Shown here in pieces: positions 16,355 through 19,231 of a stretch of DNA of 64,000 bases. The notes beneath the pieces are model-generated. The model did no database searches and had not been told where the DNA came from. It was given only the letters and a program-made list of their open reading frames with translations. This stretch comes from Bradyrhizobium sp. AZCC 2262 (GTDB lineage: Bacteria > Pseudomonadota > Alphaproteobacteria > Rhizobiales > Xanthobacteraceae). The translations under genes were made by a program, and so were the position numbers. The DNA is taken from the NCBI RefSeq assembly GCF_036924535.1, contig NZ_JAZHRT010000001.1, forward strand, positions 3,224,001 to 3,288,000, written 5' to 3'. Position 1 is the first letter of the stretch, and the number at the start of each line of letters is the position of its first letter.

Positions 16355-17879
16355 AGCTTGTGACGCTTTTGGCCGCTGCGGAGCTTTGGAGCGAGGTGGC
16401 GGCTGCTCGTCGGGGCAAATGGCGGTTTTGGGGTTTGAGTTTGTCGATGAGCTCTCGTTTATGCACTGCAGAGGCGGTTGCCTTGCAGGATGTTGTTGGT
16501 GAGGGCGTACCAGAGCACGACGGCGCGGACCTTTTCGATGCCGCGCACGGTTAATTGCCGCAGGTCCCAGTTGCGCCAGCGGGCATGGATGCACTCGCAA
16601 ATCGAACGGGGCTTGTACCGGGCCTTGCCCGCTTCGCTCGCCATTCGCGCGCGCCAGGCCAGTACCCCCGGGCCGTCGCCGCGCCGCGGCAGGTACGGAT
16701 CGGTGCCGTGCTTGGATTGAGTGGGCGGACAAAAGACCTCGACGCCCTCGGCATGCGCCCATTCGATGTCCTCCGCGCTGCCAAAGCCGCCATCGACGAG
16801 ATGGTCTTTGGGCAGACCGCCAGGGCGCGTGCGCTGCCGCTCCAGCATGGGACGCATCAGGCCGCGGTCGGACCCGGTGTTGCAAATCCTGGTGTCAACG
16901 ACGATCTGCTGGCCGGCCGCACTCGTTACCTGCACGTTGTAAGCTGGGCGGAAGCCGCCGTCGGCCATCTTCATGACCCGTGCATCGGCGTCCGTCGTGG
17001 ATGCGCGCGGCTCCTTCGGCTTCTTGCCATTGCCGCGCTTTTCTTCGCGCTCCTTGCGCTGCTGCTTGATCTCGGCCAGCGCCGTCTGCGCCGCTTTCAC
17101 GCGCGCGCGGCGCTCCCGCGCGGCTCGCTCCTTGGCCGCCCGGGTGCGCTGATTGCTGGCGTCCGAGCGTGTATCGACCTCGCGCTTGAGATCTTCCACC
17201 GCTGCCTCAGCCTGTGCCAGGTGCCGGTCGAGTGTCGCCTCGCGCCGGAACGAGGCGGCTCCCGCGCTGGCCCGGACCCGCACCCCATCCTGCGCCAGCG
17301 TCTCCAGATTGACGAGGCCAGCCTTCGCCAGCGCCGCCAGATGCTCGCTGAGCAGCCGGTCCAGCAGATCGGCGCAACCGACCCGGAAGTCCGCCAGCAT
17401 GTGATAGTTCACCGACACGCCACCGCACAGCCAACGATAGGCATCGTGGCTCTCGCACAGCCGCTCCAAGGCGCGTGCGCTGCCAACGCCCTCGCTGGTG
17501 GCATAGAGCCACAGCGCCAGCAAAAGCCGCGGCGATGTCGCGGGGTGACCGGGGCGGTCGCCCCTGGCTTTGATCCGGTTCTCCAGTTCACTCAGATCAA
17601 GCTCTTCGACATAAGACCAGATCAGGCGCACCGGATGGTCTTCCCCGATCAGGCTCTCGATATCCACCGCGCGCAACGCGATCTGGTCGCGTTGCGGTTC
17701 ACGCAGCCGCGGCGCGCCGAGCGGCGCCGCTTCGGCTTGCGGCTTCGCCTGATCCGGCAGGTCTCCAAACAATTCATCGGCAGCCATCATCGCCTCCCGC
17801 GAATCCATATCGCCAGAGAATCACACTGCATTAGCTATCGGCTAGACTGGCTTGCCCGACGTCAAAAAAATCACACTCT
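16355..17879 (-). mobile_element. IS1182-family insertion sequence, complete
   Basis: The element is about 1525 bp with one transposase gene. Its ends form an imperfect inverted repeat: AGCTTGTGACGCTTTTGGC at the left and, on the reverse strand, AGAGTGTGATTTTTTTGAC at the right (13 of 19 match). It is flanked by CTGAG on both sides (16350-16354 and 17880-17884), consistent with a short target duplication. It has landed inside a palindromic dispersed repeat, whose left end (ccgtcaccctgag) and right part are now separated. The transposase frame is intact, so the insertion is probably recent. Confidence 0.8.
16459..17808 (-). CDS. IS1182-family transposase
   Basis: The 449-residue DDE transposase is full length. 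The N-terminal domain has the IS1182 pattern DHPVRLIWSYVEELDLSEL and HPATSPRLLLALWLYATSEG. A basic coiled coil (about 195-260) carries an REREEKRGNGKK-type segment, after which the catalytic region has DADARVMK, IVVDTRICNTGSDRGLM, LVDGGFGS and the Arg/Lys-rich C-terminal block. The predicted start is ATG 17808; ATG 17787-17790 has a closer GGGAGG. No frameshift is needed for expression. Confidence 0.92.
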   Translation of the reverse strand: MDSREAMMAADELFGDLPDQAKPQAEAAPLGAPRLREPQRDQIALRAVDIESLIGEDHPVRLIWSYVEELDLSELENRIKARGDRPGHPATSPRLLLALWLYATSEGVGSARALERLCESHDAYRWLCGGVSVNYHMLADFRVGCADLLDRLLSEHLAALAKAGLVNLETLAQDGVRVRASAGAASFRREATLDRHLAQAEAAVEDLKREVDTRSDASNQRTRAAKERAARERRARVKAAQTALAEIKQQRKEREEKRGNGKKPKEPRASTTDADARVMKMADGGFRPAYNVQVTSAAGQQIVVDTRICNTGSDRGLMRPMLERQRTRPGGLPKDHLVDGGFGSAEDIEWAHAEGVEVFCPPTQSKHGTDPYLPRRGDGPGVLAWRARMASEAGKARYKPRSICECIHARWRNWDLRQLTVRGIEKVRAVVLWYALTNNILQGNRLCSA

Positions 17880-19024: not shown

Positions 19025-19063
19025 GGGTCTATCCTCTTTGGTTGAGCATCAATGCTGCGGGCA

Positions 19064-19097
19064 ATAAAAAAGCCCCGGTCCTTTTCAGGCGGGGCTT
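19064..19097 (-). terminator. Intrinsic terminator between a 23-codon leader ORF and asd
   Basis: On the minus strand, AAGCCCCG and CGGGGCTT form an 8-bp stem with a 12-base loop, followed by TTTTTTATT. It lies 40 bases before the asd start and 26 bases after the 23-codon ORF. If it works efficiently it would cut off asd transcription from the upstream promoter, unless readthrough is regulated. Confidence 0.75.
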
Positions 19098-19122
19098 CGG
19101 TTCAGATAACGCGATCGTTCGA

Positions 19123-19194
19123 CTACGCGCGCACGGCTCCCGAGCCCCCGGAGGGTGCTTTGGTTTTCGCGGTCGCTTTGGTCGAAGTCGTCAT
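19123..19194 (-). CDS. 23-residue Thr/Lys-rich peptide ORF upstream of asd
   Basis: The ORF encodes MTTSTKATAKTKAPSGGSGA plus VRA. Of the first 12 residues, five are Thr and three are Lys, both end products of the pathway that Asd feeds. A promoter (-35 TTGACG, 17-base spacer, -10 CATAAG) ends eight bases before the ATG, so the message may be leaderless. A terminator follows. This is the arrangement of an amino-acid attenuator leader, although the Thr codons are not contiguous and no alternative antiterminator has been worked out. It could also be an unrelated microprotein. Confidence 0.45.
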   Translation of the reverse strand: MTTSTKATAKTKAPSGGSGAVRA

Positions 19195-19202
19195 GGGGCG
19201 GA

Positions 19203-19231
19203 CTTATGCGGCAGCTTTGAACTGCCGTCAA
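19203..19231 (-). promoter_or_regulatory. Sigma-70-type promoter with palindromic spacer upstream of asd leader
   Basis: TTGACG (19226-19231) and CATAAG (19203-19208) are separated by 17 bases, close to the housekeeping consensus. The spacer contains GGCAG-TTCAAAG-CTGCC, a palindrome placed where a repressor would block polymerase. The predicted transcription start falls at or next to the ATG of the 23-codon ORF. Confidence 0.6.

Follow-up and report, generated by a model that had tools for sequence, protein, structure and literature searches.

A Thr/Lys-rich leader ORF and a probable attenuator upstream of a second asd gene in Bradyrhizobium

A leader unit in front of a second asd gene

The window analysed here, a stretch of 64,000 nucleotides that belongs to the 9.48 Mb genome of Bradyrhizobium sp. 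AZCC 2262, carries on its minus strand a promoter followed by a short leader ORF, a hairpin with six T, and an asd gene (Table 1). In the initial annotation this arrangement had been read as a possible attenuator of asd, and most of the parts listed there are present as described: The near-consensus promoter consists of TTGACG and CATAAG 17 bases apart, and a promoter was found in all 91 loci of the Bradyrhizobium group that we compared, i.e. the window, the best 80 of 439 asd loci and ten loci from whole-genome searches. The ORF has 23 codons with exactly five Thr and three Lys among its first twelve residues, the hairpin with T6 behind it forms an intrinsic terminator (99% of cells paired in 77 leaders), and asd has a probable ribosome site of its own, GAGGA. 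The gene is indeed asd, but not the sole one: It is a second paralogue, and the other, ordinary asd of the genome is 45% identical to it and has no such leader upstream. The leader ATG (19194, minus strand) lies 8 bases 3' of the -10 element, and this short distance suggests that the mRNA is probably leaderless and starts at or next to the ATG.

Table 1. Features of the leader unit and of asd in the window
Feature	Position	Strand	Evidence
-35 element TTGACG	19226..19231	-	sequence; TTGACG in 90/91 loci
-10 element CATAAG	19203..19208	-	CATAAG in 90/91 loci; 17-base spacer after -35 in 91/91
Leader ORF MTTSTKATAKTKAPSGGSGAVRA, 23 codons and TAG, probably leaderless	19123..19194	-	23 codons in 79/81 loci
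Control codons 2-12 (Thr 2, 3, 5, 8, 11; Lys 6, 10, 12)	19159..19191	-	per-codon counts, 75 leaders; ribosome scan, 77 leaders
Strand 2, antiterminator half within the ORF	19140..19148	-	folding with upstream part masked; core pairs invariant in 77 leaders
Small hairpin GGCTCGGGAGCC, overlaps strand 2	19135..19146	-	one flipped pair in 14/77 leaders
Strand 3, common to antiterminator and terminator 5' arm	19091..19100	-	folding, 77 leaders
Intrinsic terminator, hairpin (strands 3:4, about 19098-19069) and T6 (19071-19066)	19066..19098	-	99% of cells paired, 77 leaders
GAGGA, probable ribosome site of asd	19032..19036	-	sequence
Second asd (type 2), GTG start, 341 aa	17999..19024	-	TIGR01296, 393 bits (cut-off 324.2)

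The promoter spacer had also been described as palindromic. The palindrome exists in the window, but an inverted repeat of five or more is found in only 17 of the 91 spacers; we have therefore rejected the idea of an operator at this position, and the palindrome is probably incidental. Neither the promoter nor the terminator of the leader unit was listed by a general pattern scan, which accepts only -10 elements ending in T and hairpin loops of up to 8. Taken by itself, the leader has a fold energy that is only mildly out of the ordinary (z -1.78; an equally good fold was obtained for 11 of 200 shuffles), and it is conservation rather than fold energy that places the unit above chance. An ORF present by mere chance was rejected because its length, its Thr/Lys codons and its AAA usage are kept across the leaders. 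Two further features of the window are an IS1182-family transposase gene directly 3' of asd (NF033551, 370 bits; 16459-17808, minus strand) and a match to the suhB (mmgR) small RNA family RF00519 (42102-42175, minus strand; 42.8 bits, gathering score 41).

The second asd, called type 2 here, was searched for in several genome samples. Some asd match was obtained in 193 of the 199 genomes of an order sample, and type 2 (at least 60% identity) in six genomes of the same genus, the window's own included, and in genome G087. The family sample yielded type 2 (E up to 1e-100) in 12 of 198 genomes, eleven of them from the same genus and one being G270, and the class sample (E up to 1e-95) in 28 of 385. 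Among the best 80 of the 439 loci, Bradyrhizobium lablabi (94%) and B. jicamae (93%) have the closest named proteins. We inspected 32 further genomes of the class with a type-2 asd (24 with the leader, 8 without); all 32 possess another asd, which is 40-47% identical to the query. In a plasmid collection no named carrier of type-2 asd was found; the best identity was 51.8%.

Conservation and spread of the leader

Promoter, leader, terminator and asd occur together in 91/91 loci of the Bradyrhizobium group (best 80 of 439 included), with a single ORF frameshifted: In L114, the loss of one base after codon 17 disrupts the leader frame. In the same set, again with the best 80 of 439, TTGACG is present in 90 loci, the spacer of 17 in 91, CATAAG in 90, and the ATG at 8 bases after the -10 hexamer in 84. 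In a set of 81 loci (the window plus the best 80 of 439), 79 ORFs have 23 codons; there are 24 in L037 and 22 in L054. The ten loci from the whole-genome searches all have promoter and leader, and L085 and L033, both among the 91, are probably one contig. Judged from the record titles, 76 of the best 80 of 439 loci are from Bradyrhizobium. The unit is present in two Bradyrhizobium diazoefficiens records, L049 and L053. The record of L017 (JAUEPE010000002.1) is titled Frankia sp. RB7 and has a Bradyrhizobium-like asd with the leader; it is probably misnamed or mixed.

Conservation of the leader codons in relatives had been proposed as a check of the attenuator, and it turned out to be pronounced: Thr or Lys stands at codons 6, 8, 10, 11 and 12 in 73 to 75 of 75 distinct 23-codon leaders (codon 2, 11; 3, 61; 4, 46; 5, 73; 6, 75; 7, 1; 8, 73; 9, 59; 10, 75; 11, 74; 12, 73; 13, 58). 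At codons 14-22 neither residue occurs in any of the 75, and at codon 23 four leaders have one. The cluster corresponds to the end products of the pathway, as in attenuators of the trp, his and thr type. Codon 6 is Lys AAA without exception (75/75), and Lys is encoded by AAA in 165 of 181 leader codons as compared to 18 of the 1469 Lys codons in 80 asd genes; the preference is weaker in 44 distant leaders (59 of 101 Lys codons). It has been argued that the sensitivity of an attenuator depends on the choice among synonymous control codons (PMC1183508). The C-terminal end of the peptide is fairly conserved in the 75 leaders as well.

Outside the Bradyrhizobium group, the leader precedes type-2 asd in 44 loci and is absent elsewhere. 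By eye, 17 of the 26 class-sample genomes from other genera have a Thr/Lys-rich ORF of 22-30 codons with a similar hairpin, and eight are without a leader; the remaining one, L137, was left out. The leader is present in G270 and G087, and in all five genomes of the class that were added from a phylum sample. Nine asd genes from other classes (49-52% identity) were inspected, and the leader is absent in eight of them; the ninth, L155, was misplaced and left out. Five order-level searches, one of which added nothing, gave 20 further distinct loci with the leader, and 30 without (L161, L163, L174-L192 except L185, and L203-L212); twenty additional matches from one of these searches lie outside the counts. 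Of the individual cases, L162 has few Thr/Lys codons and a hairpin with a U-run and matches the leader model at E 3e-7, and in L186 an upstream ORF contains Thr but there is no such hairpin, which applies to L184 to a lesser degree. In the distant lineages, the C-terminal part of the peptide varies widely, and the richness in Thr and Lys as well as the hairpin are kept. Many lineages also share a short stretch resembling GC-x-CATAA or CATCA, located behind the leader stop and ahead of strand 3.

In a tree of 86 asd proteins, from which L137, L155 and L030 were left out owing to their short translations, the 46 rows of the leader group, L114 included, form one clade (99/91), and the leaderless type-2 rows fall outside of it. 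In a second tree of 78 chosen rows, 13 leaderless rows form one clade (100/98) that is nested among the leader-bearing rows on weakly supported branches. A single gain of the leader, perhaps with one loss, would explain both trees.

Predicted alternative pairings and the position of the ribosome

The 5' arm of the terminator hairpin (strand 3) can also pair with the 3' part of the leader ORF (strand 2). For 77 distinct leaders we folded the free RNA up to strand 3 with a ribosome at each codon, masking everything as far as 12 bases 3' of the first A-site base. Pairing between strand 3 and the ORF (P>0.5) is predicted in 58 of the 77 leaders at codon 2, in 63 at codon 3, in all 77 at codons 4-9 and in 75 at codons 10-12; the number is 30 at codon 13, 63 at codon 14, 11 at codon 15 and zero at codons 16-24. 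The Thr/Lys codons thus occupy the stretch in which stalling is predicted to leave strand 2 free. An alternative antiterminator stem, the second point that had been proposed for a check, therefore exists; it is conserved and predicted in 75-77 of the 77 leaders at codons 4-12.

Several results speak against an attenuator or limit what the scan can tell. The pairing is predicted for 24 of 77 leaders even without a ribosome, and antitermination is predicted for 63 of 77 at codon 14 although there is no Thr or Lys at this position. The effect of position is partly a matter of geometry, as a ribosome near the stop codon masks strand 2. We shuffled the ORF tails of eight chosen leaders with preservation of the dinucleotides: For seven of them the observed value was reached in 0-10 of 200 shuffles, and for L071 in 49 of 200, but a pairing probability above 0.8 was obtained in 19-64 of 200 shuffled tails. 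According to these folding controls, the pairing of strands 2 and 3 beats chance, yet it is not rare by itself in such GC-rich RNA. Within the group, covariation is not informative for the antiterminator, and the cores of terminator and antiterminator hardly vary in the 77 leaders. Three outer antiterminator pairs that we had defined in the window do not persist in many of the other sequences, which argues against the attenuator. A hairpin 1:2 would serve as a protector that ensures termination if the leader is not translated; its three named pairs are formed in 81% of cells, no better than when the hairpin is slid by one. The small hairpin over strand 2 gave 14 double-change cells, a number attained in 0 of 500 shuffles; this may be a single event, and the flipped pair changes the peptide.

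Many of the distant leaders have no U-run after hairpin 3:4, an observation against a terminator-based attenuator. Many of them have instead a hairpin 5:6 over the Shine-Dalgarno site of asd, and strand 4 is complementary to strand 5. We asked in a swap test how well each strand fits its own partner compared to the partners of other lineages (2000 permutations). The test used 25 of 45 leaders, chosen after inspection: 17 close relatives of the chosen leaders were omitted, as were L131, L140 and L194, for which the hairpin finder had taken the 4:5 pairing for hairpin 3:4. For 4:5 and 5:6 it was restricted to 21 leaders, without the window, L117, L118 and L121, where no such hairpin was seen. 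A value as low was reached in 10 of the 2000 permutations for 2:3 and in none for 3:4, 4:5 and 5:6, and the own partner was better than the mean of the others in 16/25, 22/25, 13/21 and 17/21 leaders, respectively. The better fit of a leader's own strands 2 and 3, seen in these 25 chosen leaders, argues for the attenuator. As far as sequences can be compared, our work establishes the parts of the leader unit, their conservation and geometry, the codon bias and the coevolution of the pairings across genera.

The chain of helices suggests that stalling may free strand 4 to pair with strand 5, and thereby open the ribosome site of asd. This idea rests on the swap test and is weakly backed by equilibrium folding, in which, averaged over 44 distant leaders, the accessibility of the ribosome site of asd is 0.46 with the ribosome on the Thr/Lys codons and 0.40 with the ribosome at the stop; several of these leaders exhibit no difference or the reverse. 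The zero obtained late in the ORF in one ribosome-position scan is trivial, since the region that was counted lies under the ribosome there; the same scan used a wrong hairpin for four leaders (L131, L140, L088 and L148). Helix chains and mechanisms overlapping the ribosome site have been ascribed to Lopatovskaya 2010 (as cited in PMC4833913).

In our opinion, the second asd is very probably controlled by a ribosome-mediated transcription attenuator whose signal is the charging state of tRNA-Thr and tRNA-Lys; the conserved Thr/Lys codons and the conserved alternative stem support this interpretation, which the initial annotation had offered as a possibility. For the events themselves, i.e. the start of the transcript, translation of the leader, stalling, termination and read-through, we infer the following course: RNA polymerase would begin at the ATG or immediately beside it, followed by a ribosome that translates the short leader. 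If Thr and Lys are ample, the ribosome would reach the stop codon and cover strand 2, strand 3 would pair with strand 4, and transcription would stop before asd. If Thr or Lys is short, the ribosome would stall on codons 2-12 and strand 2 would stay free to pair with strand 3, so that no terminator is formed and asd is transcribed.

Related leaders, known systems and possible functions

We built a covariance model from 37 leaders and ran it over the 385 genomes of the class; the E-values are rough. Matches at E up to 0.01 were obtained in 166 genomes, many of them weak. Apart from type-2 asd, 31 places (E 8e-16 to 5e-6) and ten more, mostly weaker, were inspected. In the 31 places the leader is followed by thrS (14), another asd (six), dapA (four), or another or no evident gene (seven: L240, L246, L250, L258, L261, L264 and L266). 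Six thrS genes were tested and matched TIGR00418 (L233, L242, L245, L253, L254 and L255), and the other eight were judged from their translation; five of the six threonyl-tRNA synthetases lack the N-terminal part, with the match beginning at profile position 170-172 of 565, and that of L253 has full length. Five of the six other asd genes were tested and matched TIGR01296, and L241 was assigned by translation and tree position; the six form two clades outside type 2 in the 78-row tree. The dapA assignments are based on TIGR00674, with scores above the cut-off for L259, L260 and L265 and just below it for L262. In L259, the leader frame continues past the usual stop position and comprises 40 codons.

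The codons of these leaders seem to follow the downstream gene: The share of Lys in the sum of Thr and Lys is 0.10 in 13 thrS leaders (L263, identical to L257, was omitted), 0.29 in the six asd leaders and 0.60 in the four dapA leaders. The comparisons (Mann-Whitney p 0.005, 0.018 and 0.003) concern small samples of related sequences and are only indicative; the leader starts were chosen by eye among several in-frame ATG, with a slight effect on the counts. The window's own genome has a second leader, MNKLRSAALTTTATAYGGSPAGCVR, outside the window (L254; G000:C1:3528799-3528909; E 5e-7) with a GC-rich hairpin, which precedes a short threonyl-tRNA synthetase gene (TIGR00418, 435 bits). Similar leaders with a hairpin and a T run but no evident gene close behind were seen in L250 (same genus, G035; MIKSSRTFNRNHMTRFGWAVGGVAR) and L258 (G712; MTRFVRTANRKHMTRVCRAVEGVVR). 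Leaders with the same kind of hairpin are located before or near acetyltransferase-like and ABC transporter ATPase-like genes in L240, L270, L271, L272, L276 and L261, in one case 294 bases away from an AAC(3)-IV-like acetyltransferase gene.

These related leaders bear on what the leader of the second asd may sense. It might respond to Thr only, or to a general slowing of translation, including that caused by ribosome-targeting antibiotics, rather than to Thr and Lys jointly. Thr codons do outnumber Lys codons in most leaders, and some related leaders are found near acetyltransferase or ABC transporter genes; however, the Lys AAA at codon 6 in 75/75 leaders, the rarity of AAA among the Lys codons of asd, and the few Lys codons of the thrS leaders as opposed to the dapA leaders make such a signal improbable. 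We attach an equally low probability to the idea that the leader acts mainly in trans, either as a terminated small RNA of about 130 bases or as a peptide with a function of its own. There is a precedent in the trp attenuator RNA of S. meliloti, rnTrpL, and its leader peptide peTrpL, both described as acting in trans (PMC7298713, PMC10117765), and the end of the peptide is fairly conserved. Yet the conserved hairpin over strand 2 flips along with a change of the peptide, the peptide ends of the distant lineages differ widely while Thr/Lys richness and hairpin persist, and the leader unit keeps to asd. Finally, it is hardly credible that the hairpin is an ordinary terminator shielding asd from transcription that arrives from upstream, next to an incidental ORF: GC-rich hairpins with T runs are common, and some weak matches of the model are plain terminators behind genes (L274, L275, L277), but in 91/91 loci (best 80 of 439 included) the unit contains the promoter, in front of ORF and terminator, and the ORF is conserved in length, Thr/Lys codons and AAA usage.

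The attenuator proposed for the second asd may be compared with known systems. The thr operon (thrABC) of gamma-proteobacteria is controlled by an attenuator with Thr and Ile control codons. It resembles the present leader in having control codons of the pathway in a leader ORF, a terminator and an antiterminator, but differs in the combination of Thr with Ile and in the controlled gene. With all families of Rfam release 15, there is no match in the leader at the gathering score, and at E up to 1 only two chance matches (18.8 and 19.4 bits); a known riboswitch, a T-box or an Rfam leader such as the thr leader, the lysine riboswitch or the asd motif was rejected on these grounds. The asd RNA motif RF01732, a candidate structured RNA that is also named after asd, is listed for Lactobacillales (PMC2864571) and gives no match here. 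The leader mRNA of rnTrpL is reported to start at the AUG of the leader ORF (PMC10117765), as proposed here, but has Trp codons, a 14-residue peptide and trpE as the gene.

Among the closest known systems is SEP5 of Sinorhizobium meliloti. Hadjeras et al. 2023 demonstrated its translation and regard it as possibly a leader peptide; it lies in the 5' UTR of a gene termed 'aspartate dehydrogenase', carries six Thr and three Lys codons toward its 3' end, and is described as conserved only in Sinorhizobium (PMC10117765). The initial annotation knew of no described leader of this type for asd in Rhizobiales; this does not hold, since SEP5 has already been proposed as a possible Thr/Lys leader in this order, in front of the ordinary asd. 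Indeed, an S. meliloti record has an ORF ahead of its ordinary asd that ends in KTTAKTTTKTV and matches SEP5. Similar ORFs precede the ordinary asd of a Rhizobium and a Shinella, with none in a Methylobacterium, and by eye 15 of 24 upstream regions of the ordinary asd in the order contain one, so that such ORFs are more widespread than stated. Thr/Lys-rich ORFs with these codons mostly near the stop were seen before the ordinary asd in L091-L102, L104, L108, L110, L213, L214 and L216. SEP5 and the present leader are alike in being small ORFs that lie within the 5' UTR of asd genes of one order and contain clustered Thr/Lys codons, but they belong to different paralogues, the cluster is at the end of SEP5 and at the start of the present leader, and SEP5 has about 39 codons from the nearest ATG as compared to 23. 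SEP5 does not match the covariance model of the present leader (E 0.06), and among these ORFs of ordinary asd genes, six of which were tested, there was no match at E up to 0.01. Ribosome-mediated attenuation is a known kind of control; our searches of the open literature yielded no description of a leader and terminator at the second asd, Vitreschak 2004 and Lopatovskaya 2010 being known to us as references only. The main texts of papers on small ORFs and start sites of B. japonicum (PMC5082802, PMC4842269) and of a survey of premature terminators (PMC2965389) do not name asd.

It is tempting to speculate, with about even chances of being right, that the Alphaproteobacteria possess a class-wide, modular family of leader-peptide attenuators that place spare amino-acid genes under the control of the matching tRNA charging: type-2 asd and two or more other asd clades (for Thr and Lys), thrS, mostly encoding short enzymes that lack the N-terminal part (for Thr), and dapA (for Lys). 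In this family, the stalled ribosome would act via the mutually exclusive helices 2:3, 3:4, 4:5 and 5:6, with an intrinsic terminator at the end of the chain in some lineages such as Bradyrhizobium and, in other lineages, a hairpin that covers the Shine-Dalgarno site. The status of a spare copy is established for asd only, not for thrS or dapA. The same build with other codons in front of thrS and dapA provides an internal control: A change of the codons should alter which amino acid is sensed. A comparison of lineages whose helix chain ends at a terminator with those in which it ends at the ribosome site would show how attenuation can move between transcription and translation. In the Bradyrhizobium lineage, the Thr/Lys leader of the window type is found on the second asd copy only, and a single leader that would read Thr and Lys jointly at the branch-point enzyme suggests a backup enzyme that is switched on by shortage. 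It would also give a function to small ORFs that are missed by annotation pipelines.
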